From the NCBI GenBank assembly GCA_963989385.1, contig OZ022498.1, positions 7,881,501 to 7,945,500 of the forward strand: a stretch of 64,000 bases of DNA, given 5' to 3'. Of this stretch, positions 5,401 through 46,189 are shown piece after piece (position 1 is the stretch's first letter; the number at the start of each line of letters is the position of its first letter). The notes beneath the pieces are model-generated. The model did not search any database. It was given only the letters and a program-made list of their open reading frames with translations, and was not told where the DNA came from. The position numbers and the translations under genes were made by a program. This DNA comes from Ctena decussata. Its lineage: Eukaryota > Mollusca > Bivalvia > Lucinida > Lucinidae.

Positions 5401-5545
5401 TTTTCGAGCTTCTTTGGCTGCTGCATCAAGCTGTGCACTCATTCCTCTTTGAGATTTACTGATATAACCAACAATGTATGATGCACAACCGTATGGTTCA
5501 AGAACTATCTGAATGTCAAGATTTGCCTTCCATGCAAGAAGAACA
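2401..5545 (-). CDS. Helitron/Helentron protein, C-terminal part: Rep tail, PIF1-like helicase and endonuclease
   Basis: A long minus-strand frame encodes the replication protein of a rolling-circle transposon. Upstream of the first ATG (5442) the frame stays open to about 5545 and encodes the end of a Rep region (DIQIVLEPYGCASYIVGYIS), so that ATG is internal. Next comes a PIF1-family SF1 helicase with Walker A GGAGVGKS near 4330-4360, Walker B IIDEISM near 4077-4108, VGDFYQLKP, VHKAQGAT and ALSRVKKLENLYI. A C-terminal endonuclease/exonuclease-type domain follows, with FAESRL (~2850-2872) and ILGDFN (~2510-2535); that domain is typical of the Helentron group. The HUH Rep catalytic part is absent. 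The frame stops after SGSVLDY, and the expected tail with the catalytic AYWTDHK motif appears just beyond in another frame (~2355-2400). The copy is therefore truncated and shifted. Confidence 0.9.
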
Positions 5546-5547
5546 AT

Positions 5548-24947: not shown

Positions 24948-26060
24948 CAACTTTAATACATTATCTGGAGTAGCCTAATGGCCATGCTGGAAAAAGAGCT
25001 GACCTCTTGGCTTTTTGCTTGTCTTGGCTTTGCTTGTATGTCATATTTTTTTCTTTTCCCTTTAGGTGCTTAGGGCAGTATGTGATAAGTGAATGTATCA
25101 ATTCTTGAGCATTGCCTTCTAATCTAAGTAAGAAAAAAAGCTGCAATTTTTTCATCACTAAAATAGCTGAACTACCTTGAAAACCATGTCAAACTGAATA
25201 TAAAATTACAGTATATAAATTACAAATCTGAGCATTTTATACCTCAAGTTTTGCAATTTTGGCAAGTCAGTATAATAATGTTTGCAAAAAAAAAGAGGAA
25301 GGGAAGTTTATTAGCATGATTAGAGGACCTTTATTGGGCTTAATCAAGTATGAAATGTACCTTTAAAACATGAAATGTGCATGAGAATTACAATTTCAAC
25401 TGCATTCCAGTTAGTTTATGCCCGCATGACCAGGTTTGGCTTTGATATTCCATATGAATACAAAATTGAGGTCAACACTACTGAGGCTAAAAATAAAATT
25501 TTGTTTGTTTGCAAATGCCTACCTACCCCAAATTTTTTTTGGCCATAAAATTTTGGGACAGCATTTTTTTTCAAAAAGGTAAATTTACCATGATCAACCT
25601 CAATAGTAAGACAAACAGGCCTGACCAGTTTAGACCCAGATCAGACTCTCCTGGCAGCAGTCTGATCTGGGTCTACACTTTTTTGCATTAATACCTGCAC
25701 ATTTTGGGTACACCATTTGTGCGTGAAATAGATATGTTTAAAATGTAGGATGCTGTTATCACCTTTAAACACGAGTCTTCCATACTCTCTAATTTGAAGA
25801 CCAGAATTCTTCTATATGTGGACACAGCTGGTAGATATATTTGGCTGTGTTCAACAGAGTGTAAAAAGTAGGTCAAAAGTTGCAAACGACACTGGTCTAA
25901 CAGCAACTTCATGATCTACACTTGTGTGAAGTTTAAATCGAGGTTTTTTAGTTTTTGAGACCTAAATGCTGAAGGTACGCCTAAACATAGTTGACGAAAA
26001 AAAAAAATAAAGATGATGAATGAAAGTGATCCTGCTTGCTTAAGAAACATAAGAAACATT
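24948..26060. other. Intergenic, includes a small hairpin at 25607-25690
   Basis: The hairpin TAGACCCAGATCAGACT / AGTCTGATCTGGGTCTA recurs at about 29510-29600, 35945-36080, 47345-47450 and 53510-53590. A phrase CTCTTGGCTTTTTGCTTGTC at ~25010 recurs at ~32630. No gene is recognised. Confidence 0.5.
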
Positions 26061-26061
26061 C

Positions 26062-27237
26062 CGTAAGAAACATAGCTGTGAAACTCAATTGATCACGGTT
26101 ATAAATGACTGGGCTAAAATCTTGGATAAGGGCGGTCAGGTTGACACTTTTATCTTTGACTTCGAGAAAGCTTTTGACACTCCCCCTCATGAATTACTTA
26201 AATGTAAGCTATACGGTTATGGTATTGGTGGGAAGACTCTGAAATGGATAGATTCTTTTCTCTGTTACAGGCAGCAGCGTGTGGTGGTAAATGGAGTTAA
26301 GTCGGATTGGGCCCCGGTTTTGTCAGGTGTCCCCCAGGGCACTGTGCTTGGACCATTGTTGTTCTCGTTATGCATTAACGATATAACAGAAAATATTGAC
26401 TCGGAATTAAGACTTTTTGCTGACGACTGTGTTTGCTGTCGTGAAATCAGAGATATTGAAGACACTGTGAAACTTCAGGAGGATATAGATCATTTAGGTT
26501 GTTGGGCAAGGAGTTGGGGCATGAGATTTCAACCTGTTAAATGCAATATAATGCAAATTACAAGGAAACGGATCAAGAAGATCAATGCTTCCTATACCTT
26601 AGAGGGAACGGTCCTCAGTAATGTAGAAACTATCAAGTATCTCGGCATAACCATTGCCAATGATTTGAAATGGAACACACATGTCAGTAATATTTGCACA
26701 AAGGCTAATAGGACCCTCGGCTTCCTCAGACGTAACTTGGCAGCATGTCCACAAGATGTTAAGGAGTCAGCATACAAGGGACTGGTGCGTCCAGTCCTGG
26801 AGTATGGCAGTTCAGTTTGGGACCCTCAAAGTATACTTCTTCAAGATGAACTTGAGAAGGTGCAGAAAAGGGCAGCTAGATTTGTAACAGGAAATTACAC
26901 ATATGAAACTGGGAGTATGACTGGCATTCTGGAGAAACTTAAGTGGGAATCCCTAAAAAAGAGAAGGAAAAATAGTAGACTTATAATGCTTTACATTGGT
27001 CTGAGGGGTGCAGCCAGTATACCCATAAATGACCTTGTTCCCCCAAATAGGCGTACCAGGAATCATCATTCCCTGACATTTCAAACCCCATTGGCTGGGA
27101 CTGACATTTACAAGTCCAGTTTCTTCCCCCAGACTATTAGAGATTGGAATTCCCTGGAAGATTCACTTATTTCTGCTGCTGAGTGTGCAGAGGATTCAGT
27201 TACTAAGTTTACTTCTCTTATAAGGGCTAGGGACTAG
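26062..27237 (+). CDS. CR1-like LINE reverse transcriptase, 5'-truncated
   Basis: The frame is open from about 26062 (FRKKHSCETQL) with no true start codon, so it is the C-terminal part of a LINE polyprotein. Reverse transcriptase motifs appear in order: FDFEKAFD (~26151), SGVPQGTVLGPLLF (~26320-26365), LFADDC (catalytic DD, ~26416), WGMRFQPVKC (~26515) and KYLGITIANDLKW (~26635). The thumb and C-terminal region follow intact to RARD. The endonuclease and the N-terminal fingers are missing, as in 5'-truncated dead-on-arrival copies. A short tail after the stop ends in ATTCTGATTCTGATG (~27296-27310), like the short 3' repeats of CR1 elements. No target duplication was seen. The intact frame suggests a fairly young insertion. 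Confidence 0.92.
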   Translation, partial: RKKHSCETQLITVINDWAKILDKGGQVDTFIFDFEKAFDTPPHELLKCKLYGYGIGGKTLKWIDSFLCYRQQRVVVNGVKSDWAPVLSGVPQGTVLGPLLFSLCINDITENIDSELRLFADDCVCCREIRDIEDTVKLQEDIDHLGCWARSWGMRFQPVKCNIMQITRKRIKKINASYTLEGTVLSNVETIKYLGITIANDLKWNTHVSNICTKANRTLGFLRRNLAACPQDVKESAYKGLVRPVLEYGSSVWDPQSILLQDELEKVQKRAARFVTGNYTYETGSMTGILEKLKWESLKKRRKNSRLIMLYIGLRGAASIPINDLVPPNRRTRNHHSLTFQTPLAGTDIYKSSFFPQTIRDWNSLEDSLISAAECAEDSVTKFTSLIRARD

Positions 27238-27505: not shown

Positions 27506-30500
27506 AGGGACGAGTTATGAGGGGGGGGGGGGGGGGGGGGGGTACATTTTCATATGGTTCACAAAAATTTTTCCGACCCTCCCAGTCTCAACAGAATAAT
27601 TTTTCCGACCCCCCTAGATAGGTGACAAAAAATTTTATGACCCCCCCTATCCCCGGTGCCAGCTACCCTTCACACACATACCATATTACCTATTTTATGT
27701 CAGACTGACCTCAATCAAAACCTAGCTGTATGAAACACAAAGAACATCTTCTTATTCTAACAGGTTAATTACATGTAATCATGGTCTGTTTAAATTTTGT
27801 CTGCATTTGTTGCACTTTTTCTTCTGCTAATGGCCATCCAGAAATCTTTTTGTTGAATGCTTAATAATTATAACTGTAAATAATATTAATTGGGCCTCTG
27901 GGTGGTGGGGGTCTGGGGGCTGTGTTTTTGCTGATGAAAAGGCACGTGTAGAGCTGATATCACAAATGCAGGCTTTAAATTTAATTGAGCACAAAATCAT
28001 CTACTTTACATGATTTTATAGACACTTTCGTACTGTTCTAGCAAATCAATGAAAAGTTTTTTATATGAAGCTGCCCATTCTTTTTGAGTCATTTCCATAA
28101 AGAGTTTTTAAGTTTTAAATTGTGAGTTTGAAAGAAAAGAGTCTGAAATCTTATGAGGGCGCATGATAATCTCCGGTATTCCACCGGTATCCATTTCCCG
28201 GTATTCATGGGGGTACATGGGTTTGGCAGGGCATAGATTCAAAACTACTGCACAGAATTTCATAAACTTGGTGTCATTTGAAAGGCAATACACCAATCTA
28301 TAATATGTAATAAATTTGGTTCATATTTATTTTATTTTCTTCTATTTATTTGCAACTAAAGTCCCGGTATCCGGATTTTGTTGTCCCGGTATCCATGGGG
28401 TAGGCATGTTTATCTTCAAATAAAATCCAAACTACTGGACCGAATTTATCATATTAAATATCAGATAAAAGATAATGTTTTAGTCTAAACACTACATTTA
28501 AATTTTGTAAATTTAGCCGTGCAATTTTGCAGAAATAATGTTTCAAAGTCCCGGTATCGGGATTTTTTTGTCCCGGTATCCATGTGGTAGCTATCATTTG
28601 CCTTATATAAAACATAAACTACTGAACCGAATATCAAAAGTTAAATATCAATGTACATGCAATGTTTTTATCTTAAATAAACATTAGAATTTTACAAAAT
28701 TTACCAGTTTATTTGGTAGCAATAATGCTTCAAAGTCCCGGTATCCGCTCTTTTCATTCCCAGTATCCATTGGTATGATGTATGTGACGTGAAATAAGAT
28801 CATAATTAATTAAAATTGCATTAACAAAAACACTTTTGTAATAAATAAAGGTTAAAATAGATTCAACGTGCTTCAGCAGCCGTATACCACCAACATCCTG
28901 ATATTCGGATAATGGTAGGGCACGGACCGACCGTGTGTGCAGCAGGTGCGGGATGGTGGTTGTTTAGATTGTTTTGTTATCTATCTGGTCCATTCTTTTT
29001 CTTTCTCCCTCTGTCTATGAGACGGTTTGATGTAGACTGATTATTGTCTCAAAGAACCGTTATATCCAAAAAAATTTAACGTGCTTCAACAGTGTATCAA
29101 CAAATGGACTGGCATGACTTGTATCATGAATGGTAATCATTGGATATATTGACTGGAAAATGCGAACAGGAGACCTTCATCGGCTAGTGTTTTCATGAGA
29201 ACCTTCTATTTTCCAGACAACCAAAAGCCAAGAAACTGACCAGCATGAGTGGATATGTAAGCTGATCAGAATCCCAATCTTAATGCAATCCATAGGTCAG
29301 GCATAAAAAATATTATGTTTACAGTTGTCGAACATGGGTAATTTCATAGGGTAGGCAGGTCGGCTTTTTTTTTATTCCTGCAAAACGTAAAAGCAGCCCA
29401 AATACTACATAACATGTTAAAATATCATATTAATTATCCGATAACAGCATCCTACAAGATGAACGAACCTAATTTACCCACAAATGGAGTACCCATGAAG
29501 TGCTAGTGGAAAGGCAAGCAGTGTAGACCCAGATCAGACTGCTCTCCAGGATCTGCACTGTTCAGCCCAGACCTGTTTGTCTTACTATTTACGTTGATCG
29601 CCTTGACATTCGCTGTTCATGAAAAAACAACTTGTCACATAAATGATACGATATTAAATAATATGTAAATCAGCTGATGGTAATGTGCACAGCCCGTGGT
29701 AAATGTAGAATAATCAGTTTCTGGTGCCAGAAGGAATGTATGGAAATGAAATTGGTCATTTCTTGTAGAATGATGCATATTTTTATCAAACTACACCATG
29801 TGGTTAAGAGTTATGAGGACATTCACTCATTGACTACAGCGGAAGGACAAACAGACTGATGGACTTGCACAGCGATTAAAGTGCACACCTGTGGGTCGTG
29901 CAATACTGTTTAGATTTTCGTCACCGTTTTGCATGCCGGTGGCTGGACAATGTTAAAATACATAAGCATACAAAATTTGAACCATATTTACCACGGTGAT
30001 CAAGAGTTATGAGCATTTTCAGTAGTTGGCCGTAAATTTTCAACTTGTGCTCAGCAAAGCCTCGTCCATCAAATAAGGTTGTTATGCATGCGAGTCGTTA
30101 GACAATGTTGACATGTATAAGTATGCGAAATTTTGTCAAAATATTGAGTATATCGACAAAAATCGTTCTGAGAGCAAAAAAAACAAACAAAACCAAAAAA
30201 AAAAAAATTTTCAGTCTATATCATACCGTCTCATAGACAGATGGAGAAAGAAAAAGAATGAACCGGATAGATGAGAACAAAAAAAAATCTATACAACCAC
30301 CATCCCGCACCTGCTGCACACACGACCACACACGGTCGGTCTGTGCCCTACCATTATCCGAATATCAGGATGGTATACGGCTGCTGAGGCACGTTGAATC
30401 TACTTTAACCTTTATTTATTACAAAAAAAGTTCTGTTAATGCAATTTTAATTAATTTCAACGCGGAAATTATGATCTTATTTCACGTCACATACATCATA

Positions 30501-31340
30501 CCAATGGATACCGGGAATGAAAAGAGCGGATACCGGGACTTTGAAGCATAATTATTGCTACCAAATAAACTGGTAAATTTTAAAAAATTCTAATGTTTCA
30601 TTAAGATAAAAACATTGCCTGTAGACATTGATAATTAACTTTTGAAATTCGGTTCAGTAATTTATGTTTAATATGAAGCAAATAATAGCTACCACATGGA
30701 TACCGGGACAAAAAATACCGATACCGGGACTTTAAGACATTATTTCTGCATAATAGCTAAGTCAAATCTACAAATTTTACATGTAGTGTTTAGACTAAAA
30801 CATTATCTTTTACCTGATATTTAATTTGCTAAATTCGGTCCAGTAATTTGAATTTTATTTGAAGTTAAACATGCCTACCCCATGGATACCGGGACAACAA
30901 AATCCGGATACCGGGACTTTAGTTGCCAATAAATAGAAAAAAATAAAATAAATATGAACCAAATTCATTTCATATTATAGACTGGTGTATTACCTTTCAA
31001 ATGACACCAAGTTTATGAAATTCTGTATAGTAGTTTTGAATCTATGCCCTGTCAAACCCATGTACCCCTGTGAATACCGGGACATGGATACCGGGAATAC
31101 CGGAGATTATCACCCGCCTCTTATGAGCCCCCCAGAAGCTGAGACATTTTTAAAAATGAAGACTGATGGAAGAATTCTGACGCCCCCAATATGCCAAATA
31201 AAATATATGACCCCCCCTGCTCCAAGGCTTTTTTATTTCCGACCTCCCCCCCAGTACATCACCAAAAAAAAAATCCGACCCCCCCCCTAAATGTACCCCC
31301 CCCCCCCCCCCCCCTAGCTGACAATAAATGACTCGTCCCC
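27506..31340. mobile_element. Large foldback (long-TIR) non-autonomous DNA element
   Basis: Ends AGGGACGAGT (27506) and ACTCGTCCCC (31331-31340) are inverted and flanked by TA on both sides. Just inside are G and C runs. Arms 28130-29045 and 30208-31135 are inverted copies of each other. Each arm has four ~187-bp units marked by paired CCCGGTATCC words (left arm near 28186, 28365, 28552, 28738). The ~1.16-kb loop (29046-30207) has no coding frame. TA duplication fits a Tc1/mariner-like or similar mobiliser, but the superfamily is unknown. Confidence 0.8.
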
Positions 31341-32047
31341 TAGTCCAACAAGTTAGACGTCCGCATGCACTCATTTATATTTTACCTTTCATAGTTGTGC
31401 ATGCAACGTCTAACACGGACCCTATACATGTCCGTATCGCACTTTTAATATTTTTATATACGGTGTCTTCCCTTTGTATTATTAGTTATTCGTATGTTTT
31501 AGGTCGTAAAAAGTTAAAATGTATAATAACATGCCAACTAACCTTTCCTATCGTCAAAGAAGTCGGAATGAAAACCAGACATCACTCAAATCAACCATGT
31601 ATCCGCCATTATGTTGAAACGGGGCCACGTGAGGGTCACGTGACATCTGGTTACAGCAAAGACTTGAAATTGGATTTTTCTTTTTGGACGAATTTTTTTT
31701 TTTTTTTTTTTTTTTATTTTTTTTTTTTTTTAACCCCATCAACGAATATACGAATATGAGGGGTGAAAAATAAGCTCCTGACCAAAATCTAAAATAAGAA
31801 ACAAATAAATCCAAATAATGCTTTAAAAATGGGTGATCTGTATCAGACATTATTTCATGACCCAAATTTGAAATAAGAAAATCCAAATACTGCTTATACA
31901 AACAGGTGAACAGTAACAGACATTATTTCACTGAATCAGAATAAGAGACCATGGCTTAGCTCAGAATGAGAATATGAGGGGAAAGGAGTATGCCATTTAA
32001 TTTCTCCATCCACACCATGAGGAAGTATACTGACAGAAAGTATGTGA
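31341..32047. other. Left flank of the giant element; no gene
   Basis: It holds a hairpin GTTAGACGTCCGCATGCAC / GTGCATGCAACGTCTAAC (31352-31413), a T-rich tract (31691-31732), and an ~80-bp tandem duplication around AAATAAGAAAATCCAAATAC (31790-31930). The left terminus of the giant element may lie here but was not found. Confidence 0.5.
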
Positions 32048-32450
32048 TACGGTGAGCGAGGCAATCCCCGATAGCCGTAAGTCAAATGGACAGAATATGT
32101 TTTGGTGACAGATGTTTTGTTACAGACGTTTGTTTAGAATAAATGAAATATAGCAAACCAAAAAAGTCTCCTCTGATCTACAGAGGAGAAAGTACCCTGC
32201 ATTTTTTTCTTATCATTTAACACTGACTTTGAATCATAACCTTCGACACTGATTTAGTATCAGACAACTACAAATGCGAGCGAGGCATTTCTCATTCTGA
32301 ACTTGTTAAGAAAGAAATAATAAAGTATATAAATGCAAATGTATGACGCGTTAGAACTCAGAGCATATATATAGAGTGATGGTAAAATTGGACCGGCGTG
32401 GGGTGGGGGTGGGTGAACACGGTTAGCGAGGCAATCCTCACTATCCATGG
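32048..32450 (-). repeat. Left cluster of three core hairpins
   Basis: Copies near 32050-32075 (CGGTGA-GC-GAGG-CAAT), 32275-32300 and 32421-32446 (GGTTA-GC-GAGG-CAAT-CCTC). They are reverse complements of the right-hand cluster. Outer arms partly pair with each other (CGGT...GCCG and GGTTA...TATCC). Confidence 0.7.
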
Positions 32451-32794
32451 TAAGAATGAGGGGAAATGTCTTTATACTAATGCAGGGTAATTAAAACGAC
32501 GAGAACTTAAGAAAAACAACAAAAAGGCTGGGTACATTGGAGTAGGGATGGACAAGAGCAGGCTGTGTGCAAGATGGAAATAAATAGCTCCTTTCAGTAT
32601 TTGCGACCATCTGCCGGGAAAGAGATGGACTCTTGGCTTTTTGCTTGTCTTGTTGCGCCTTTTGTGCCGTCTTTATTTTTATTATTATGTACTTCTCATC
32701 TACTTTGAAAAAAAAAGAAAAAAAAGAGATCACTGTCAGGCTTACTGCACATATAAGTCTGCAAGTGCTGCATGCCACTGGTGTATGAGTACAT

Positions 32795-32902
32795 CCCAGC
32801 AGGCACATGACGTTGGAACGACGTCGTGCTGACGTCGATGCGACGTAATGACGTCGCATCGACGTCAGTACGACGTCGTTTTGACGTCATGTGCCCGCTG
32901 GG
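32795..32902. mobile_element. ACGTC-rich near-perfect palindromic MITE
   Basis: It runs from CCCAGCAGGCACATGACGT to ACGTCATGTGCCCGCTGGG with alternating GACGTC words throughout. It lies just beyond the stop codon of the RecQ-like gene, probably in its 3'UTR. Confidence 0.75.
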
Positions 32903-32942
32903 TATACTGACTTTTAAAGTTGTTGGCTTGAAATGTTAAGAA

Positions 32943-34007
32943 CTAAACTGCCAAAAATTTCTGAATATCATAAATGGAGCTTTCAGAGCATTTGCATTTT
33001 TTCACACACGATGAGCAGCATTTGCAACACGCGCAGGAACAGACTAGTAGATTGCAGCCTTCGCATGGAACATTGTTGATTTCTGTATCATCCGAGACAG
33101 AGAAAACTCGCATGATCTGTTTTCGAATGCATTTTTCCTGTGAATTTTTGACAATGTCAGACATGTTTTTATCGGTTGTTTTTAAAGAAGCAGTGAAATT
33201 ATCATAAAGTATCAAACTAAAACCCTGCCTTCCATCTCTCGCACACCGCCCTGCTTCTTGCCAGTATGATATTACGGATTTGGGACAGCCGATATGAATA
33301 ACGAGTCCGATATCCGGTATATCTATCCCCATACCCAACGCAACTGTGGCTATTATACAACGTATTGTACTGTTTTGCTGGGAAAACGTTTGCAAGATTC
33401 TATCTTTAGAACTTTCATGTGTGCATTTATGAAACATTTCGATCAGTAAATGGTCTGAATCTTCTGTGAAATCGGCATATGCATGTTTGCCTAAAGCGTC
33501 CTTGAGAACTATAAAGATCTCTGATACCATGTCAATAGATCGACAATAAATAATTGTTTTCTTTGAATATGAACCCTTTGATTTAATGTGTTCTATAAGC
33601 CAGGAAAGTTCAGATTCATAGACATTTGTATTTTTTTTCTGACACGAAATAAAAATGTTCGGCCGGTTACAAGATTTTGCGACAACAGTAGTTTTGCCCT
33701 CTTCCAACTGGAGACTTGACATTATGTCGTCTTTTACTTTTAACGTAGAGGTTGCAGTGACCGCCAAAATTGGAACATGAAAAAAACTACGTAACTGGGA
33801 CATTTCCCTGTAGTCTGGCCTAAAATCATCCCCCCATTCTGACATACAATGTGCTTCATCAAAAACAATAGAAGAAAGTCGCTTCTGCCAGATATCAGAC
33901 AGCAGAATAGCTCTCCATTTTGGTTTCAAGACTGACTCGGGCGAAGAAAAGACCACACTGTAATCTCCATTGGCTATCCCTGTAAAAGAAATAATAAAAT
34001 CCCAGAA

Positions 34008-34062
<55 letters not shown>

Positions 34063-34886
34063 GTACTTAAAACAGAACAGTATTTATTTTTCCATTTTTT
34101 AAATTTTATCTATGTTGCTGACCATGAAAACATCACCAAAAACCTACCAGTGATTCTCATACCGAATTTTTTTCAATATACATGTAATAATAAAAAGCAA
34201 CGATTACAGTAAAGCTGATACTATATACTGCTTGACGTATACCATTAATTCACAGATTACTTTTAAAATTTGTCATATCTGACCAACCATTAAGTCGAAA
34301 TTTGGGATTTAGCCTGACCACACATTAAGTCGAAATTTGGAATTTAGCATCTAACAGAGAAAAATAAATAAATAAAAAAAAAAAAAAAAAAAAAAAAACA
34401 GGTAGGCAATGCACTGGTGGATGATATGTATACTTTTCAGCAGTTTTCCAGTCGTAATGGTCATAATGCTGTATGGAACCCCGTTTACGGTTGAAAAGAT
34501 TTCTGCCTTCAGCGGAAATCGAACTCGAGACCGCTAACAGGCTATCTGAGCTTTCGAATTAAACTGAATTTACCTGTTTGTACTTCAAATGGCGTATCAG
34601 CAGATATTTTCGCGGCCTTTAAATTCCATCGTTCAAGAGACTGGATCTGATTATCCATCAGGGACAAAAGTGGTGATATTACCAGTGTGATAGTCGGGGT
34701 TTCACTGAGGATACAGTTCGCCACAAAAGTAAGAGTTTTACCGAACCCTGTTGGTAAAAATCCGAGACAGTGATTCCCATTTCTGATTGCTAATGCAATC
34801 ATCATTTGCTCAGGTTTGGGTTCGAAGTCTATGTTGTGTGCAGATTTTTTTTCATTGAAGAGTGCCGTTATTGTTTCGGTATCCAT
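32943..34886 (-). CDS. RecQ-like DEAH helicase with cysteine-rich C-terminus
   Basis: Two exons, 34886-34574 and 33979-32943, join in frame (CAAACAG|GT donor, TTTTACAG|GG acceptor) and give 449 aa. The start is the ATG at 34884-34886; the frame is open upstream but lacks another ATG. SF2 helicase motifs are complete: Walker A TGFGKT (~34735-34752), DEAH (~33852-33863), AVTATST, ATVALGMGIDIPD, and motif VI QEAGRCARDG (~33233-33264). These are RecQ-type. The C-terminus lacks clear RQC and HRDC domains; instead it has CEGCNLLVCSCACCKCC and further cysteines, eleven in all, likely a metal-binding tail. The predicted role is ATP-driven 3'-5' DNA unwinding. It is divergent from the DUF6589 gene 270 bp away. 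A (CT)n run (34014-34056) and an A tract lie in the intron. It could be a host gene, but the surrounding hairpins and partners favour element cargo. Confidence 0.88.
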
Positions 34887-35155
34887 GCTTGAATCGCTGC
34901 GCTGCCGCGCACTGGCGTCAATATGCTGCGCATGCGCAGCAGTCGACACGAAAAACAAAAGGCCTACCTCAAACTATTGATCGTCCAATATTAGGATGAA
35001 GCTCTGCCTGGTCTCCAGCTACTCAGTAATGCGTGTAGTGTCTGACAAGCAGATCCGAATCTGATTGGTCAATTCGTTATACGTGGGAGGTTCCAAATGC
35101 CATTTAACACAACAGCTGTAGAAATTGTTCATAGTTCTAAGTGAAGTCGGACAAC
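34887..35155. promoter_or_regulatory. Divergent intergenic region with inverted CCAAT box
   Basis: The 269 bp separate the start codons of the RecQ-like gene (minus) and the DUF6589-type gene (plus). CTGATTGGTCAATTCG near 35060 contains an inverted CCAAT box; no TATA box is evident. It probably drives both genes. Confidence 0.5.
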
Positions 35156-38100
35156 ATGGATACCTGTGCGAATTGTAATGCTCCTTTCAAAGCGAGAGAC
35201 AAGGGCTATCACAGATTTAACCTTGAAAAAGTAATCCCAGCCACAGGGAACACTGCTCGTAGCCATTTAGAGCAGATGTTTAGCATACCTATCACTCCTG
35301 TATCTAAAAAGACCGAGGCAAAATTTCTATGTTCCGTTTGTTGGAGTGACTTGAGCAATGCAGCTAAATACAAAAAGGCTATGACAGAAATATGGGCGAG
35401 TACAGAGTCAACGTCTTACGTCGGTTCCAAAAGGCTTTTGATGGACATAGCCAGTCCTGGCACGTCAAAGCGTCCGAGGTACACAAGTACACCGCTTAAG
35501 GTAAGACTTTACCGTGTGTGTTTTTCGAACAAGATCATCCCAACGAGCACAACGTTGAATAAACATTGATTCAATGTTAATTGATCCAATGATTATTCAA
35601 CGTTGTGCGCCTGCTGTGATGTATGTTTCTTGCTGTTCGAAGGAAAATCTATTTTCTTCTGTTATTGTGTAATTCATAGTAGAACTTCAACGGAACACTG
35701 ATGGCTCGTTAACCCTGCCTGACTAGAAATATTTCCTTGATCCCTAGAGGTAACATTATATAGAAACTAACCCTGGATGGCTGGAACTACCCTGGAAATA
35801 ATATCCATAGTCCCAAGCCTGTTCGAGACAATGAAGTTCTACTGTATGTCCAATTGCTAATACTGGCACTTGACTTTTTTCACTGTTCAGATTAACACTT
35901 GAAAAATAATGGTAAATACCGTAAAATTCTAAATATTGGGGCAGTTAGGTCTGAGCAAATAGGGCCTACCCAGATCAGACTGTTCCACAAGGAGCAGTCT
36001 GATCAGGGTTTACACTATTTGCCATCTCATTTGCGTTTTTTGGACACATTACTGCACTGTAAAACCAAACTGTTCCAATTTTAGGACAACTATGGTAATT
36101 ATTTTTGGTGTCCCAATATTTAGAATTTTTACAGTAGTAAGTAGGTAAGGGATATTGGTCGATGTTGCAAGGGTGCATGTGTGTGCGGGGGAGGGGGGGG
36201 GGGGATCTCGGTGAAACTACGGGCGATGTGTGTATCTTTGTGAAACTCCGGGCGAGGTGTTTTTGGGACTCCGGGTTTTTCGTATGTAAGCTTTATACTT
36301 TTTGAAACTCACTTTATATGGGCGGTATGATGAAAGAAGTTAATTTATAAATATGCTATTTGCAGGGACACCTCGTCCATACTTTCAACAAGATACACCC
36401 CTGTCCCCCACCCCATCCTCCACCCACCCCATTCACCACTTACCGTATTGATCGTTTCCATAGGGTGATTTTTTTAAATGATAATTTGACAATCGCATTT
36501 CTGAAATGAGCCGCGACATGACAAAACCAACAATGTGGTTGTGCGCCCAGCGCAGACTCAGATCAGCCTGGGCATCCGCCTAGTCTGATCAGAGTCTTTG
36601 CTGTCCGCATGGAGCTAGCTTAGACCCTGAGCTACATTTTGAGCACTTAACGATGACTCTGATCAAACTGAGCGGCTGCACAGGCTGATCTGAGTCTTTG
36701 CTTGGTGCACAACCACATTGTTGGTTTTGTCGTGTCGCGGCTCAAATGTAAACGTTTTGCACAAAAGAAAACTACGAGAAGTCTTTGCTATTCAAAATGG
36801 GACTTGGAACTGAGATGCTTCCTTACAATTTTTGCTCAGCATTTATATTCATGTCATCAATTATATGTATCTGTATTACTACATCAACTGGAGAGGCCAA
36901 ATCAGGTCAGTTCCTACTTTCATTGGCTCATGAATGTCCTCATGTATATGTAATCATGAAATTCTGAATAAAAAATAATGCTATGTTGATGCTGAAGTTT
37001 GCAATGTGCGTTTTACGGCTCGACTGATTTTCTTCTTTTTTCTTCTTCATCTTCTCCTCCTTATTTTTCTTCTTTTTTAGAAATTGATATGCATTTAGGT
37101 GGACCACTAATGCTACTAGTCTTATGGTATGGCTATTGCTTTCCATAAAGGCAACATCTGTAAAAGTTAGTAGGAAATGACAGTATATATTTGCTCACTA
37201 TTTCAGACAAAGAGCAAAGCGGCTCGGCCAATTTTTGGGAAGTCAAAATCTGGTAAATGAGACACAATAATTAACGCCATACGTTCGAGGCATTATCGCC
37301 GCGCTTTTTCAAATCTGTACAATGCGACGGCGGGAACAAAAAGGCAATTTAATGAATTTCTTTTGCGAGTAGTTCGAAAAGAAATGAGTTCGTTATTGAA
37401 TTCGAGAGAATTTCCGCTTTCCAAGGATGTTAGCATCCAAAACATAAGTGACTTTTCTTGGGAACAGACCCTTAATATGGCCACTGAAAAGGCGCCCATT
37501 CTCTTGAATGTGCTTAAAGGTGCTGTGACCACCAAATCAAATCATGAGAGTATGATGAGAAATGCGAAAGTAAGTTTGAAACCTCGCATTGGCACAGCCC
37601 TTGCTGTTTTAATGAATGCGAAAGCTCCAAGTAAAGCAAAATTTCTCCCTTCTCTTCTTTCTGTGCAATTTTGGCGAGGTAGGCTGAAAAGGGAAACAAT
37701 AAAACAACTGTCCCGCTTGGGTTTATGCGCTGGATATGAAGCGACTCTTTCAACAATCGATCGCCTTAGGGCTAAATTTGACGAAGCCGCGTTAAAGCTA
37801 AAAGAAAACATGGAGGCTGCTTTACCCAAACGGTTAATACCACCAGTAGAAGAAGATGAGGGACAAGAATTGTCCCTTTCTTTGTCAGTCTCAGCTCCTA
37901 ATGTTGAAGACGAAGTAACCTATTACTCAGACATGGAAGAAACTATTCTCTACTCTGATTTGAGCTGCACCAATCTGTCTGACACAATTTGTAAGAAAGA
38001 CGAAGAAGACGCCGATGAGTGTGAGGACGGAGAAAATGATACTGAGAGTGAAGAAGATAATGAATGTGAAGAAGAAGATAATGAAAATGAAAGCGAAGAT

Positions 38101-40227
38101 GAAGGTGAATGTAAACAAGAAGAAAGCGATGATGAAGGTGAAATGGATATTGTAATGGAAAGCACATTTGATGATGAACCGGGCAAGCCGCTTCATACAT
38201 TTTCTGATCCCCCAGGGTTTACTATGTGTTGGGATAATGTTGGCAAAAAGGTTGTGACACGGCACCCAACAGAAACAGTTAAAAACCGTTACCTAAACAT
38301 GGCTCTCGGATACATAGCCATAAACAGGGTCCCATCAATACACATGAAATGGGAGAATGATAATACGGTTTCAAAGGCGGTAGATATACCTTCGGAACGA
38401 TTCCTTCCAAATCTGTCAGATATCAATCAGCTGCGTTCTAGAATGCATGTAATTGTTGGTAGAATCCTAACCAGACATTTGGAATGGTTTCGTCTTAATT
38501 TTAGTGACCTTAGCGTTCCTCATATACTTCATGCAAATTCACTCCGATCGTCTTACAAGAGTGTCTTAATTAATCTAGGCGTATTTAATGAAAACCCATC
38601 ATCAACTCAGGGGGCTATTGGAATATATGAAGAGCTCCAGAAATATGTACCATCAGTAGATGGAAAGCCTTATACAACTATTGTCTATGGGGACGGCCTA
38701 AGTTGCGAACGCGGAAATGATGCCCATCGGGCTCGATCAAATGGACTGAGCCCTTCAGAGAGACTTGAAGGGCTTGAACCTGCCGTTCAAGAATTTCATA
38801 AAGAAATGATACTATTGCAAGATTTTTATGATGTATTTTTCAAAGGTGGGAGTGCCTCCGATCGTGGTACATTGTGCCAGATCAGAAATATCTTTAATTT
38901 TCGACAAGTCAAATCTGACGTTTCGGACAACTTTTCATATGCGTGGGAGTTGATGTGTTTAGTTGTAGAAGGCTTTGTGTGTCTAATGATGATGTGTATT
39001 GGAGAAATGAAAGAACGAAATGCACGACCATCTAATGCACCAGAAAATATCGAATATGGTACAGATGAAGCGAGGTCCTCATACTTTCATGAAACGGTGC
39101 AACGCATAGTAGACGGTGTCTGGCAGCCGTTAGATTTTGAACGTCTAAAAACAGATGAGCATAGTGGTGTTCTTGTAATTTGCTGTGGTGAAGATTTGGA
39201 TGAAGACCTAATAGGGTGTGAATGCAGGAGTAGCTGCTCAAGGGGTGAATTCTTTCACTATTCTTGTGCTGGAATTGACCCTGAAAACATTCCTGTTCCT
39301 TGGTACTGTAGCGACGAATGCAAGTATCGCAATGTTGAACCATACAAATTTTGTGAATGCCAAACGGATCTTGGAAGTGACGAACCGATGATAGGCTGTA
39401 GTGCCGAGTCACAATGTACAAGATTTGAATGGTATCACATGCGCTGTTTGGCTATAGATCCCAACAAAGCACCGAAAGGTAAGTGGTTCTGTTGCGATCC
39501 TTGTAAGATGATACCAACAAGGAAACAAGGAAAGACATCAAGTGCTAAATCAGACCCACAGCATGATTATGTGTTCAATTATAGCAGTGGTATCGTATGG
39601 CAAGGCCTAAATCTACTCTGTCGTCGTGATGCAGTAAGAGAGGCAGACGGTGAAGCAATTTTGTCATTTTGGAAGTTCGATTTGATACACTTCTTTGGGT
39701 ATAAACATCCGAAATATGTAATTCTTGCTCATCGCCTGCTTGCTTCTGTTAATGGATGGTTGCCTTCCAAATTAAGACATGATCTTATTCATAATAGAAC
39801 AGTAAACTATGGAGGTGGTATGGGAAGAAATCTTCCTTTAGACTTTATGAACGAAATTTTAAACAGGTTATTTAAGGATTTACTGGAATCTTCAAAAGGA
39901 AGGTATACCGATACCACTATTCATAGGTGTAGCCAAATTATTGGCCCCTTAGGGGACGCCCTTGACAATGTTTTCGATACTAATGTTGTGGAAAACGAAC
40001 TTTATCGCCACAGACGCCGTGCTCAGAACAGAGATAGTAATGTTTCCAGACTTATAGAATTGTTGGGGAATCAAAACCTATTTTCTATCATACGCGGCCG
40101 TAAACATTCTGCTTTTCCTAATTTCGTGCTGTCTGAAACACCCAGACAAGCTGGGAAGTTTCCAGCAAAAATGAAACAGTTATCAAAAGTTCTCGACAAA
40201 AGGCGCAGAATAGTAATTAACTCATAA
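35156..40227 (+). CDS. DUF6589-type protein with N-terminal zinc motif and two PHD-like fingers (putative transposase), one in-frame stop
   Basis: Exon 1 is 35156-35500 (AAG|GTAAGA donor) and exon 2 is 37207-40227 (CTATTTCAG acceptor), joining in phase 0. Exon 1 has CANC...CSVCW, a probable zinc-binding fold, then a basic KRPR stretch. Exon 2 reads TKSKAARPIFGKSKSGK, then an in-frame TGA (37258-37260), then continues open for 988 codons. The body has a long acidic stretch (~37990-38180) and a DUF6589-like region with YGDGLSCERG (~38680-38710), EFHKEMILLQDFYD and GTLCQIRNIFNF. Two Cys/His PHD-like fingers follow (39170-39325, 39345-39515). A C-terminal block has GHP-like GYKHPKYVILAHRLLAS, NRTVNYGGGMGRN and LDFMNEILNRLFKD (~39836-39880). 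The function of the family is not established; a DDE-like recombinase role is my inference. Translation downstream could start at an internal ATG if the TGA is real. Confidence 0.8.
35534..35612. repeat. Palindromic hairpin element in the DUF6589 intron
   Basis: Arms GAGCACAACGTTGAATAA and TTATTCAACGTTGTGCG with a short AT-rich centre. Confidence 0.65.
36508..36743. mobile_element. Palindromic MITE (GAGCCGCGACA family), best-preserved copy
   Basis: Ends GAGCCGCGACATGACAAAAC and GTTTTGTCGTGTCGCGGCTC are near perfect inverted repeats. It lies in the intron of the DUF6589-type gene, so it postdates or travels with the giant element. Confidence 0.8.
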
Positions 40228-41589
40228 AATAAGTCTTTTCCTTCGAGCATGTACCCTACAGCATTAGCATTTTGCATGCATCTTGTATAGCATTCAAGTT
40301 GCTGCAAAATTTAAGTTTTTCAGGTGAGTCTGGGATAACGATTTTTCTTATCGAGGATCATGGTTTTGTTGCCTGTATAGCAGTGCATACAACGATACCA
40401 TGTTCCTTGGTACAAAAATCGCTACCCGGATCCACTTGCAAAAAAAAAAAAGAAATATACAATAGAAAATATTAGTCTGCATTAAGTTGAATGTGGAGTC
40501 CAGCTGCATGCAAAATGCAAGCTTCGCGCGGAGCGAATAGCTAACAAAATGTTTCGAATTATTGTAGAAGCTGTGGGCAAGGGTTGGGATCCCGTAAAAC
40601 TAGTTTAAGCTCCCGCCCCGTCCCAAGGTAATTTATTACTGATCTAAGGATGTGGATACTGAATTTTACTTGTTGTCCACGTTGATGCTTTCGTTCACCT
40701 GTTGAAGTAGTGTTTTATGTTGTAGCTAAATGAACACCTGTCTGAAAAAGAGCTGATTATTTGATTTATCGTGCTGACTTTTGTGAACTACTGTCAGTTA
40801 ATGTATATATTTTTTCCCTGGAACAGGAGAGCTGATTGTATTCGTTCCAGACCAATGACTATCTTTTTACTTATTCTTTTGAGCATGTCACATCTGTTTT
40901 GTTCCCTCTCCCAAAACAAGCAAAAATAGTGGCGGGTCACATGGGTAATGGAAAACTGTCACTATTTTGACACATTCATTAGTCTGGCAAGATGATGATT
41001 GTCGGGGATAAAGCGTTTGCGTAATTTGTCCCGCTGCTGAGGATGTTAACCATATTACTTTATTAAAACTGTTACTCTCACTGTGTTATTAATATCGTAA
41101 GCGAATGAGGATAGCCTCGCTCGCTTTTTATCTACTTTAAACAAAAACAATTAACCATAAGTAATCATACTAGGTATACCGTATTAATCCTATCAAACGT
41201 TCTGGGTCGGGCGTTGCATTTTCAGTTGCACATTGAAACAAATCGACTGCTCTCAATAGTGCTTTCCATAGCCATTACGTGAATGTTACTGTGAGAGAAT
41301 AAAAGTTGCCACTTGAAACCACTAAAAATCTTTAACCGTTTCATTAAACATTTCGTGAGTCATGCGGTTAATACCTGACCTGGGTATTGCCAAAACAAAA
41401 CAAAATCTTGCATATAAATTCATCGAAGTAGGAAAGACATGAAATGTGTTTTTTTGAGTCATTCTCAGGATTGTTGCTAGCCATGCAATTTTAGTCAGTC
41501 TGCAATACTTATTTTAGAAAACAAAGTGGCGGGCGTGTATTAGAATTGATACTATTCTATTCTATCCCATAACCGTACTAGGTCGTTGG
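40228..41589. other. Spacer inside the giant element
   Basis: No coding sequence is recognised. It contains one core hairpin at 41095-41121. An upstream exon of the SGNH gene may lie here but could not be identified. Confidence 0.45.
41095..41121 (+). repeat. Core hairpin with perfect AAGCGA/TCGCTT outer arms
   Basis: AAGCGA-AT-GAGG-ATAG-CCTC-GC-TCGCTT. It has the same internal AT/GC mismatch as the right cluster but sits 2 kb further inside. Confidence 0.75.
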
Positions 41590-41917
41590 GGCACCACAGA
41601 TGACTTTGAAACAATCCCTTTCCACCTTGTCCTGTTTTCAGCTGCCCTAGTTGAGCTGGCCAAATCCATACCTGTCTTCAATATTGTCTTCCCACCTCTT
41701 CTTTTTGCCTACCCCTTCTTCTTTTTCCTTTCACTGTGCCCTGTAGAATCGTCTTTGCTAAACCAGAAGACCTTGAGACGTGGCCAAACCACCTTAGTTT
41801 CCATTTCTTGACCAGCGTCAGGAGTTCATCATATTCTCCAATGGCTGCTGGGATCTTTCTGCGAACCTCATCATTGGTTATGTGGTTCTTGTACGAATAA
41901 AAACGTATCCATACCAA
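41590..41917 (-). pseudogene. LINE (RTE/Jockey-type) reverse transcriptase C-terminal fragment
   Basis: The minus strand encodes AAIGEYDELLTLVKKWKLRW followed by FGHVSRSSGLAKTILQGTVK and GKRRRGRQK, a hallmark end region of non-LTR polyproteins. A frameshift near 41690 breaks the tail. It is a short dead insertion inside the giant element. Confidence 0.8.
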
Positions 41918-42022
41918 TTTTAGTGCGACAGACGCGCGTTTCTGTATTTAACTTCTTCGAATTGATACCTTTTTATTCTAATAATATGTATAAATTCTGA
42001 TAAATTCTCCTCCCCTTTTTAG

Positions 42023-42913
42023 CAAAAAAAGAAAAAAAAAGGATTTGTAGCTACAAATAAAAATTCATACGAAACCATTCCATACTCTTATGGAAAGGAA
42101 GACAATGATGCACACGTAACGAAATGCTATTATTGTGGCACTCGAACACACCCGTCGCTTTGCTTATAGCACATGCCGAATGCGCTAGCTTCCTGCACGT
42201 GTAGATTAGACAAAATGTCCGTCAACAAAGTAAATAAACAAATCTCACATTTCGAGATGATTTTACAAGAAGAACGCAGACCCGGAAGGCGTGCTTTTGT
42301 GGTAACAGATTCAAAAGGCCGGTATTTGTCTCGTTGTCTGGAACACCGGGATTTCTTACAATTTATATGGAGAGGCGGTGCCCGGATAGGAGACGACAGT
42401 CTTCTTGACAGTCTAAAGGAGAAAATCGAAGACATGCAGGAACCCCTAGTTTTCATATGGCTAGGAACTTGTGACCTTACCAAGATTGGGCAGAGTAAAA
42501 GGGTCAGTTTACGGGGAGTTGAACCTCAGGAACTGAGAAATGCACTGGAAGATATGCAGGAGAAAGTTCGCGCAATTAATAACTCCAGTCGAGTGGTTTT
42601 TCTGAAGTGCCCGATTTACTCCATTTCAAAATGGAATGAAAGCCACGGTTTAGATGTGCAAGAAAGGGATGGCAGCGATGAGCAGTTAGAAACTGCAGTG
42701 AAAATTTTAAATGAAGTTATAGATTCTCTGAATAATTGTTATACTCCAAAATTTTCGCTGGATCTTTTGAAAAACACTAAAACTAAACATGGTCGTCAGT
42801 CAAGATATTACTATAATTTTAAGGACTTGTATGTTGATGGCATACATCCTGGACGGGAATTGTCGAAATTATGGCTTCTGAGAATTAGAAAGAATTTTTT
42901 CGATCATTTCTGA
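42023..42913 (+). CDS. SGNH/GDSL-hydrolase-like protein with upstream zinc-knuckle segment, one in-frame stop
   Basis: From the ATG at 42173 a 246-aa frame runs to 42913. It has an SGNH-like layout: block I replaced by VVTDSKGRYL (~42300), LGTCDLTK at the GxND position (~42463), and DGIHPG as the Asp-x-x-His block (~42836). The nucleophile is a Ser in TDSKG, so activity is plausible but unproven. In the same frame upstream the sequence is open from 42023 to a TAG at 42167-42169 and reads KCYYCGTRTHPSLC, a zinc-knuckle-like motif. A good acceptor (CTCCCCTTTTTTAG) ends at 42022. The likely original exon therefore starts at 42023 and now carries a nonsense codon. SGNH domains occur in several animal transposons; the substrate is unknown. 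Confidence 0.65.
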
Positions 42914-43055
42914 ATAACTACCAATAAAATTCAGAAAAATTTAAGTTCCTTCAAGAGCAACTAAAACATTCATAAGAAAGAAGAAGACCAAGAACTAGAA
43001 TACCTGTGGCTGGGATTGTTGTGGCCAAGACACCAGAATCGCTTTTTTTTTGTCT

Positions 43056-43632
43056 TATTTGTGGTCAAATGAGGACTGCCTCGCTTGACCCTAATCTGTT
43101 AACTGAAAGACTGAATAAAACTCTGGATGGGTTATTGGCTAAGATTTATTTTGGTGCTGGGTGCATTTTAGGGACTATTTGTATGTTAGGATTGCTAGGT
43201 GAATGAGGATTGCCTCGCTTACTACAGCAATTCAGGTCTTTATTTATTTATTCATGATGTTTAATTTATCGGTCATACTGCCTCGCCTTGTCTAAATCGC
43301 TATACTTGTGGCTGGAGACGTGATTTTCAATTTTTACGTAAATATATATTCAGTGTTTTACTTTGTGACAATGAAGAGAATGCACACCTTGTTGGACTAT
43401 TTGGAGACACGATTGCCTAGATGAATGAGGATTGCCTCGCTCATCGCATCAGTACATTATATTTTTTATTTTGTTTAATACCCCTCCCCCAAGTGACATT
43501 TTATTGGTCAAATGAGGATTGCCTCGCTTGGACCAAAACCTTATTGAACTGTAAGTTTATATAACCATTGGGGTTGTTGTTCATTGTGCCAATGTGAATG
43601 AGGATTGCCTCGCTCCGCTCAATGAAGGACTT
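43056..43632 (+). repeat. Right cluster of five core hairpins
   Basis: Copies at ~43062 (GGTCAA...TTGACC), ~43197 (GGTGA...TTACT), ~43419 (GATGA...TCATC), ~43504 (TTGGTC...GACCAA) and ~43593 (TGTGA...TCCGC, poorly paired). All contain ATGAGGANTGCCTCGC. A decayed remnant, CTGCCTCGCC, lies near 43278. Spacing is 90-220 bp. Confidence 0.8.
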
Positions 43633-46189
43633 CAGTTAAGGATGCCAATGGATTTTCACAGGATTTGAATCAAATTCAGTCGTTAGGAGTTTCCGTGCTG
43701 AAAAGCTGTTTTAAATTAATAGCACTCGAAGACGGATTTGAACATACAGAAAAAATCTGCCTGGGCGATTTAACATGAGTGCGCAAGTTTTATCTTATTC
43801 TATACCCCGCCGTCGCCAATTACAGATTTTTAAAAGTCTGCAAAGTTTAAAAGCTGCTGCGATAGAGTTGCTGATTCATATGGCAATCCCAAAAAATAAT
43901 AACATCGTGAGAACATGAGAGAAGACGTACATACAGACCTTCTCAAGAACAGCAGAGGTTGGTTGAGACGATTCAGCAAAGTACGTATGTCCACATCGAA
44001 CCCTGTGTAACATTATTGCATTACTTTATGCAAATAAAGGTAAGATTATTTTAGCTATAAACAATTATCACTATTAGTTCCCATACCTGATCAAGGAGTT
44101 AAGGGAGTGGGAATACTTATATTCATTTAAATTTCGTTCGGGGAGATGCACCTGCCGAAATAGCCCCCCCCCCCCCCCCCCCCCACCCACCCACCACTAC
44201 ACACACACAACATGCCCTTACTTGTTTCCATCCGTTTACTTCGTTTGGAAAATCTAATTCATGTTTTTGGTGACCAATAACTGGTGACCTCTTTTTGAAA
44301 ACGTAAACAACTATATTTCTCTATTTTAATAGAAGAAACTTAATTGCTGTATGTCTGTCTGTTTCAGCCAATCTACCCATTTCCGCCAAAATTTTCAGAA
44401 AATCCAATCCATGTTTTTGATTTAACCAATTACCGGTGGCCTCTTTTTGATTTAACCAATAGCCAGTGGCCTCAAATTGACAATGTAAACAATATGGCGT
44501 GATAAACATTTACTGGGACATAATCAGGATGGATTAAAGGTTCTTTTGGTGACCTTTTGAATATTATTGGTTGGGATGAGGAATTTAACTATTACTTATG
44601 TAAGTTATATATGTAATTTGATTCGGGGATGTTTCAAATGTCTTAATTTTAGCTGGGAAAAGCAGCGCGTCGAGCGAACGCGGTCCTTGCGTAAGAGTGA
44701 TGGCTATATCCGTATGAGAGTTCGCGTTCCGAAGAATAACAAAAACGTAAATAACAGCATAAAAACGTAAAATATGAATGTCTGGAACGCAGAACTCTCA
44801 TGTATGGGAGTAACTCGTCCCCAAGATCGATCCCATGAAAATATGAGACGCGAAATCTAATGACAATGGAATTTTTAGCTGCATAGAGTAAAAAAGGGAG
44901 AATAATTCCCCTGTAATGTCGTGAATCTTCTATGATAAATTTGTATGTCAACATTGCAGGCTTAATCAAAACACAGACCAGACAATATATATAATTATTA
45001 CCGACTGACGTTTGTTGACTTTTTTTTTTCAGTCCAAGTTAGCAGAAGCTTTACCAACTCTTCATTTGAAGGTAAATTTGTCCACACTTTTTCCCGCAAA
45101 ATGTCAACACACAAGACATGTTTGGTCTTGTTTTGTGTAAATAACCCATCCGCTGAATAGTCTGACACAGGTAATTGTATAGATAATCTTTAATGCACAT
45201 ATAATACGACCAGGGTGATTGGAAAACCCGTGATCAAGATTGTGTTTGTTATTTTTATCCACACCTCCATAGCAACAAAGTAAACAGAAAGCACATGTGA
45301 CTACTTGTAATTGATTTGGTCAGAACAGGACACAAATATATTGCGTTTGAAAGTCGTGGTTGTTTGTTTTGTTTGTTATCAGGATACTCAGACATGTAAG
45401 TGCCCACAGCATTTCCAGTTGTTGCATTTTAACTTGATTACTTAGCACTCTTTCACATAAAATCATTAGCATAGATAGCTCGGGTGTCTGGATAAATCTG
45501 TGAGGTTTGTCTCAAGACTGGCTGCGTCCCTCTGTCATGCAGGTTTGAGTCCAGCTAGATATGTTGATGTCGGCATGTATGAATGGTTAACTGTTCCTTT
45601 TGCTGTTTCCATTTTCATAAAGATGTTCCCCAGGAGGCTCCATTGGAAGTTCGTATCCATTGTTGCACGCTCCTTGCACTGGAATCCTGTTCCTTTTATA
45701 ACTTTGCCCTATTTATACCTGCCATCCTCCTAACACCCACCTCCTTACAGCAGGCTTGCCAAGTACAAGCTTGTAGTAGAGAGGTTGCAGTGTGTATTCA
45801 GTGGAATGCATGATCTTGCCTGTTAGAATGTTGGCACAGTTGTAGTTGTAGCTTTATTAGATATCCTCCTTAGAAGTAAGATTTCTGATGAGTATGCAAT
45901 GGTAACTCTGATATTAATTGATTTTTATTATTGTACACTGCTGTTAGCCCTGTTGTGAACAGCTAAAGCAATCACTGTAGATAGGAGAATTAAAAAGAAA
46001 TTTCTAGAGTCCTTTTCATTAATTTTGTAGGAAAACCTATGTCTAGTTAGAGCCAGCTTGGTCTGGTCACAAATATGTTTTCAGGACAAAATAAGAAAAT
46101 ATCCCATGTACTTACCATCAGATAATCTTCTTATCTTGAGCTCTGCCATTAATTATTACCTTATATAAAGGTTTTGAAAAAATATAATT
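43633..46189. other. Intergenic between the giant element and the SOUL-like gene
   Basis: No gene is recognised. It includes a C run (44166-44184), an ~150-bp tandem duplication around GTGGCCTCTTTTTGATTTAACC (44248-44495) and a hairpin at 44712-44804. The promoter and any 5'UTR exon of the downstream gene may lie here. Confidence 0.5.
44712..44804. repeat. Short inverted repeat
   Basis: GTATGAGAGTTCGCGTTCC (44712-44730) pairs with GGAACGCAGAACTCTCATG (44784-44802) around a ~53-nt A-rich loop. Confidence 0.6.

Follow-up and report, generated by a model that had tools for sequence, protein, structure and literature searches.

Kolobok transposons insert at TTAA, giving TTAA duplications, and AcademH transposons are said to have been reported from animals and fungi by Kojima in 2020 (Mob DNA 11:15). 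According to one published passage, AcademH makes target duplications of 9 or 10 bp, and AcademX of 3 or 4 bp (PMC10045372), while a passage elsewhere names AcademH and KolobokH as transposons with helicases bearing DEAD and Helicase_C domains (PMC10799480). RecQ helicases are encoded by KolobokH and by Kolobok-1_CCri, in the latter on the complementary strand, according to passages that report KolobokH only from fungi and list Kolobok with a C/DxxH motif (PMC9587614). The locus compared with these systems here is a 13,472-bp mobile element (31341..44812; termini TAGTCC... and ...GGGAGTA) of the lucinid bivalve Ctena decussata, carrying genes for a RecQ helicase, a DUF6589 protein and an SGNH-like protein, as well as inverted arrays of hairpins. 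It lies in a window of 64,000 nucleotides, the whole stretch of DNA analysed (assembly GCA_963989385.1, contig OZ022498.1, forward-strand positions 7,881,501 to 7,945,500), in which all positions are given unless another contig is named. With a probability of roughly 0.85, we regard it as a DNA transposon of the cut-and-paste type, belonging most likely to the AcademH lineage or a sister of it, with DUF6589 as the DDE (Asp-Asp-Glu) transposase.

The element is mobile: at least two copies have the same ends, unrelated flanks, and target duplications of 9-10 bp. The ends of the window copy were set by homology, as the points at which its 98.5% identity with the C15 copy stops, 31341 and 44812; the left end is also common to the C11 copy. 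A 10-bp duplication, ACTCGTCCCC, borders the element at 31331..31340, and matches 44813..44822 exactly, while the C15 element has the 9-bp duplication TCGTAGACC on either side. The 2-kb flanks of these two copies exhibited no similarity at an E-value of 1e-5, and the C15 copy carries an additional 2.1 kb near window position 31590. Ends were also resolved in the C4 element, with termini TAGACTGG.../...CCAGACTA and the 9-bp duplication CCCTGTCAG, and in the C12 element, with termini as in C4, the 9-bp duplication CTGTTTACG, and a second left-end-like piece close to the right end. None were found when sought in C17, C15b, C6, C13 and C7; the right side of C11 lay outside the fetched DNA, and C16 was left out of the end search. 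A first-pass annotation of the window had proposed that these genes move as one unit, which is borne out by other copies in the same genome that end alike, differ in their flanks and carry target duplications; the span it assigned, 32048..43625, falls within the element, the ends of which really lie at 31341 and 44812. Using the window copy alone, no terminal repeat with a duplication had stood out, the true right end being outside the range searched: the first such search excluded 44812, and the second excluded both true ends. A single 9-bp end candidate was rejected, since one also arose in 25 of 300 pairs of random regions.

The assembly, of 1.66 Gb in 245 contigs, contains 53 DUF6589 matches, although each copy contributes several of these segments, and the weakest are perhaps not true members. 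A query from the left side of the element (31700-32640) returned 12 matches, comprising the window, long copies on C15 (99%) and C11 (94%), and nine short matches of 33-40 bp. Besides the window, ten 20-kb regions with DUF6589, picked mostly for long matches, were compared. Copies of DUF6589 without companions had been named beforehand as grounds for doubting a common unit: RecQ is next to DUF6589 in nine of the ten regions, as such a unit implies, but SGNH is found in only five (C15a, C11, C17, C15b and C6), and hairpin matches in the identical set. These five share the gene order RecQ(-), zinc finger, DUF6589(+), SGNH(+), their pieces having 33-100% protein identity. Nucleotide identity divides the copies into six groups (window, C15a and C11; C17; C15b and C6, at 95-99%; C4, C12 and C13, at 91-97%; C7; C16), with RecQ in five and SGNH in three. 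In C7 and the single family formed by C4, C12 and C13, identity to the window is 23-31% for the DUF6589 pieces and 27-36% for those of RecQ, and no SGNH or hairpin match was detected; the C16 region has a DUF6589 fragment only.

The putative transposase gene begins with an exon (35156..35500, +) encoding a zf-AD-like zinc finger (E 3.5e-5, below the cut-off), which is 100% identical in the C15 copy. The DUF6589 exon (37207..40227, +) is interrupted in the window copy by a TGA, after which an open reading frame (ORF; 37261-40227) matches PF20231 (E 1.6e-28). Structure prediction and residue conservation support this protein being a DDE transposase of the RNase H fold. The candidate catalytic residues, numbered within the ORF and all on the plus strand, are D325 (38233..38235), found in every one of the 30 rows, out of 46, that have a residue at that column; D478 (38692..38694), in 39 of 40; and E794 (39640..39642), in 33 of 35. 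Tandem PHD fingers are inserted in the catalytic domain (39166..39504, +, limits approximate). Among the 50 matches listed by a fold search, 30 were PHD fingers, and the other 20 were RNase H-type folds, as judged from their titles, the best structural matches being the P element and Hermes transposases. A first structure model, A1, built from 16 sequences, was poor (predicted local distance difference test, pLDDT, 56.5) and was set aside. Between the three families compared, third codon positions differ at 0.61-0.63 and second positions at 0.19-0.24. The presumed counterpart of the C/DxxH motif of the Kolobok, hAT, P, MuDR and Dada group reads Q-E-F-H, with H513 in 36 of 40. No row reached an E-value of 0.001 when the DUF6589 model was searched against a viral fold library, and no relative was found in scans of general genome-contig and viral-contig collections; nor did any paper in the collection searched mention DUF6589, and those with the letters 'pf20231' bear unrelated titles. 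Two DUF6589 relatives, P0023 and P0049 (the latter from Liolophura sinensis), have an altered second catalytic Asp segment with much else conserved, and are decayed or possibly domesticated copies.

The RecQ gene is divergent from that of the transposase, 269 bp away, and is open on the minus strand as two exons encoding 449 residues. Exon 1 (34574..34886) contains the start codon and GKT motif, and exon 2 (32943..33979) the DEAH motif, the C-terminal helicase domain and a Cys-rich end. The product belongs to the RecQ family by TIGR00614 (E 1.2e-70, above the cut-off), and in comparisons with structures matches WRN and BLM at E-values of about 1e-44, and bacterial RecQ at about 1e-39. The first-pass annotation named the RecQ, DUF6589 and SGNH genes and the inverted hairpins from their letters, and all proved to be present.

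Nine hairpins flank these genes. On the left, three have cores on the minus strand (L1, 32056..32070; L2, 32280..32294; L3, 32426..32440), and on the right, six are on the plus strand: R1 (41106..41120), between the transposase and SGNH genes, followed by R2 (43070..43084), R3 (43204..43218), R4 (43426..43440), R5 (43513..43527) and R6 (43599..43613). A motif search of the window returned 10 matches versus 0.84 expected, a number reached in 0 of 100 shuffles; that at 993, with 3 mismatches, was taken as chance and dropped. A covariance model finds exactly the remaining nine in the window, the next match having an E-value of 1.4, in keeping with the first-pass observation that the family was absent elsewhere in this stretch. 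The core is TGAGG-ATTG-CCTCG or a close variant, with a stem of only 5 bp. The outer arms vary between copies yet stay complementary, and this complementarity is the non-random part: the sum of arm scores, 97, is equalled or beaten by 88 of 362,880 left/right arm re-pairings. Pairing was found in 86.9% of cells, versus 76.9% in shuffles, and the covariation score was 0.361, versus 0.167 (0 of 500 shuffles reaching either); shifting the partner by 1-3 columns reduced the latter to 0.098 or less. Weaker measures on the nine alone were further pair types, matched by 10 of 500 shuffles, and pairs changed on both sides, matched by 78 of 500. Adding seven ungapped hairpins from C17, C15b and C6 (of 13 matches there, the six with length changes being omitted) gave 91.5% pairing and a score of 0.345, with 0 of 500 shuffles reaching each; several are near-duplicates, and therefore the seven amount to about four independent cases. 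The hairpins of C15a and C11 were omitted from this set, as close relatives of the window copy. Seen in element orientation, with positions converted by hand, each of the 26 model matches in sister copies is on the minus strand if it lies at the RecQ side, and on the plus strand if it lies at the side of the transposase and SGNH genes; nine of the 26 correspond, in C15, to the nine of the window.

The extreme tips of the element may also fold. At the left tip (31343..31358, +), GTCCAAC-AA-GTTAGAC forms 6 of 7 pairs, with a score of 4, which 145 of 3000 random TA sites also attained; at the right (44794..44811, -), ACTCCCAT-AC-ATGAGAGT forms 7 of 8 pairs, with a score of 5 reached by 97 of 3000. 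The family D tip hairpins score 6 and 6, a value reached by 25 of 3000 such sites. Since the left and right tips are related, these folds are suggestive only. In the C4 region (L028-L029), inspection by eye revealed, past the tip hairpins, a second and longer inverted pair at each end, GTCGAATCTG...CAGATTCGAC on the left and CAGACCCTATGT...ACATAGGGTCTG on the right, once more differing in sequence yet self-complementary.

The SGNH-like gene (42215..42913, +) is open and encodes 232 residues, its start being assigned there because 12 of 15 relatives begin at the Met of window 42215. The Ser, Asp and His of the triad are kept in the window copy, and are found in 16 of 16, 15 of 15 and 14 of 15 rows with residues, respectively, in GDS- and DxxH-like blocks. 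Block III of SGNH hydrolases has an Asn, in GxND; here Cys is found in 16 of 16 (GTC[DE]). Judged by these residues, the protein may be an active but unusual hydrolase, because the triad is kept and Cys replaces the block III Asn. The window protein scores 19.8 bits against Pfam Lipase_GDSL_2, relative to a cut-off of 32.9, and 8 of 16 members match at an E-value of 0.1 or better (best 5.4e-5). Searching the genome with SGNH gave 279 candidates, of which the best 150 were scored; among these, 10 rows, representing seven loci, adjoin DUF6589, the seventh being on C11 near 56.985 Mb, outside the fetched regions, and most others are 29-39% identical. On C9 (G000, 79349595-79380614), four SGNH genes are spaced at approximately 10.13 kb, and in the one interval read (L046, 79352001-79360000) an SGNH gene is followed by ORFs that appear gag- and pol-like by eye, making this locus a possible SGNH-carrying Gypsy-like family in a head-to-tail array. 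As the L046 gene adjoins gag- and pol-like ORFs, SGNH seems common to two very different kinds of mobile element, and we would guess that it encodes an accessory hydrolase that the transposon acquired from, or has in common with, Gypsy-like elements in this genome.

A related SGNH-like protein was also encountered in Bathymodiolus DNA (L001:1-6900, contig JACCHT010000022.1 of a symbiont metagenome-assembled genome), followed by two hairpins of type GGTGAGAACAGTCTCGCC, gag-pol-like ORFs without any detected long terminal repeat, and six hairpins of type TTGGTGATAACTGTATCGCCAA. These hairpins have the wobble-pair design of those in the transposon, although the element looks to be of a different kind. 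L001 was at one time considered the same transposon, given its SGNH gene and hairpins of like design; this was dropped in favour of a Gypsy-like element with a related SGNH, because L046 holds gag-pol-like ORFs and few SGNH rows adjoin DUF6589, and therefore its hairpins are excluded from the evidence for the transposon. In both L046 and L001, the neighbours of SGNH, read by eye, are gag-pol-like ORFs rather than a DDE transposase. SGNH and hairpin scans of viral contigs found nothing, and a literature search on mollusc Gypsy transposons with an esterase returned unrelated titles only.

The element was assigned, as probable, to AcademH because its helicase and its duplication length both match, AcademH being known here by description. 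As described in those passages (PMC10045372, PMC10799480), AcademH too is a DDE transposon encoding a helicase and making 9 or 10 bp target duplications; in the Ctena element the helicase is a RecQ, the duplications are of 10 bp in the window and 9 bp in C15, C4 and C12, and a DDE transposase is indicated indirectly, through the predicted fold and the conserved D, D and E. This would probably be an AcademH variant, differing from those descriptions in the extra SGNH gene of one branch, in a DUF6589 transposase with tandem PHD fingers, and in the structured ends formed by covarying hairpin arrays. The first-pass view that the combination is undescribed holds for SGNH, as a literature search found no transposon combining a RecQ helicase with this gene; it does not extend to the pairing of DDE transposase and helicase, which is the published AcademH design (PMC10045372), or to RecQ, which is known in KolobokH (PMC9587614), as far as the relevant passages of these papers describe them.

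How such an element might move can be outlined tentatively. The transposase would recognise the inverted hairpin arrays and the tips, cut the ends, and insert them into target DNA at cuts staggered by 9-10 bp, the duplications being observed and the enzyme predicted from its fold. The exon 1 zinc finger would bind DNA, and the ING-like PHD fingers could dock the complex on H3K4-methylated chromatin or promoters, steering insertion; the PHD finger of RAG2, which reads H3K4me3, is a precedent. The hairpin sites may be read as folded structures, and as the RecQ helicases of other organisms unwind forked and structured DNA, that of the element might open the hairpins, or resolve them along with the gaps that transposition leaves, or aid repair. 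That all these parts apply together, with ends read as folded hairpins instead of sequence, the arms being free to vary while they still pair, and the hairpins extruded or resolved by the element's own RecQ, sites picked by ING-type PHD fingers, and an SGNH shared with retroelements, is a speculative and rather doubtful proposition.

Some observations would fit other readings: the best structural matches, to the P element and Hermes, and the hairpins themselves, all nine of which read in the sense direction behind the RecQ, transposase and SGNH genes, with a U.G pair, tolerated in RNA, in the inner stem of eight. The structural matches, and the presence of RecQ in KolobokH and Kolobok-1_CCri, would suit an element from another DDE superfamily, Kolobok- or P/hAT-like or unnamed, that gained RecQ independently, which we consider unlikely. 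P element, Hermes (a hAT transposase) and RAG1/RAG2 resemble the DUF6589 protein as RNase H-fold transposases, and RAG in part through its H3K4me3-reading PHD finger, but this is in the RAG2 subunit; none is known to have tandem PHD fingers inside the catalytic protein or to encode a helicase, and all have other duplication lengths. The four elements with resolved ends have 9-10 bp duplications of other sequences, rather than the TTAA of Kolobok. KolobokH and Kolobok-1_CCri are nevertheless similar as DDE transposons with a RecQ helicase, in the latter on the complementary strand, whereas the same passages limit KolobokH to fungi and give Kolobok its C/DxxH motif (PMC9587614); a duplication length of 9-10 bp is that stated for AcademH (PMC10045372).

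The orientation and U.G pairs of the hairpins would instead suit a role as RNA, in 3' untranslated regions of the RecQ, transposase and SGNH genes, to which their clear covariation can equally be credited; this too is improbable. Downstream of the transposase gene, the first AATAAA (41298) lies beyond the hairpin at 41106, in favour of an RNA role, though an ATTAAA (41062) precedes it. Conversely, an AATAAA (42923) directly follows the SGNH stop and precedes R2 to R6, and two more are found after the RecQ stop, ahead of the left hairpins, such signals alone being weak evidence; the mirror arrangement is that expected of subterminal transposase sites. That a host locus, or adjacency by chance, accounts for the three genes, without mobility, is very improbable: RecQ and SGNH are open in the window copy, and several bivalve genomes have DUF6589 proteins annotated as ordinary genes, but copies on other chromosomes have common ends and separate target duplications. 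The AcademH-like transposon is the preferred reading.

Individual copies exhibit decay. Of the two nonsense codons noted in the first pass, the TGA at 37258-37260 disrupts a stretch of the window's transposase gene that relatives conserve; the TAG before the SGNH ORF exists, but precedes the Met at which most relatives start, and is therefore not shown to damage that gene. The C15 copy is open at the TGA site but has a frameshift in SGNH, and the C11 copy is broken at several places. A repeat of approximately 350 bp at 41552-41897, with pieces 82-91% identical in several fetched regions, is another nested insert, alongside foldback inserts resembling miniature inverted-repeat transposable elements in the transposase intron (36507-36744) and beside RecQ (32795-32902); relatives of the former are found at 46.2-46.4 kb of the window and in several of the regions fetched. 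Immediately to the left of the transposon is a large inverted repeat (28184-31094), with 385-nt arms that are 92% complementary and approximately 2.1 kb apart. Further away are a reverse transcriptase ORF (26053-27237, +; PF00078, E 1.2e-22), and, identified by eye, a 1065-residue ORF resembling a Helitron-type PIF1 helicase with an endonuclease end (2401-5598, -) and an exon resembling NFKBIL1, likely a host gene (12169-12723, -).

The SGNH gene is the part of this element for which the literature search found no description, the design of helicase and duplications having already been published. If DUF6589, listed as a family of unknown function, is a DDE transposase, its members across molluscs would be re-labelled, as would many fungal proteins. 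A histone-reading module inside the catalytic domain would make targeted insertion directly testable. The combination of covarying hairpin arms with an encoded RecQ helicase suggests that the ends of a eukaryotic DDE transposon may be recognised through their structure, rather than their sequence.

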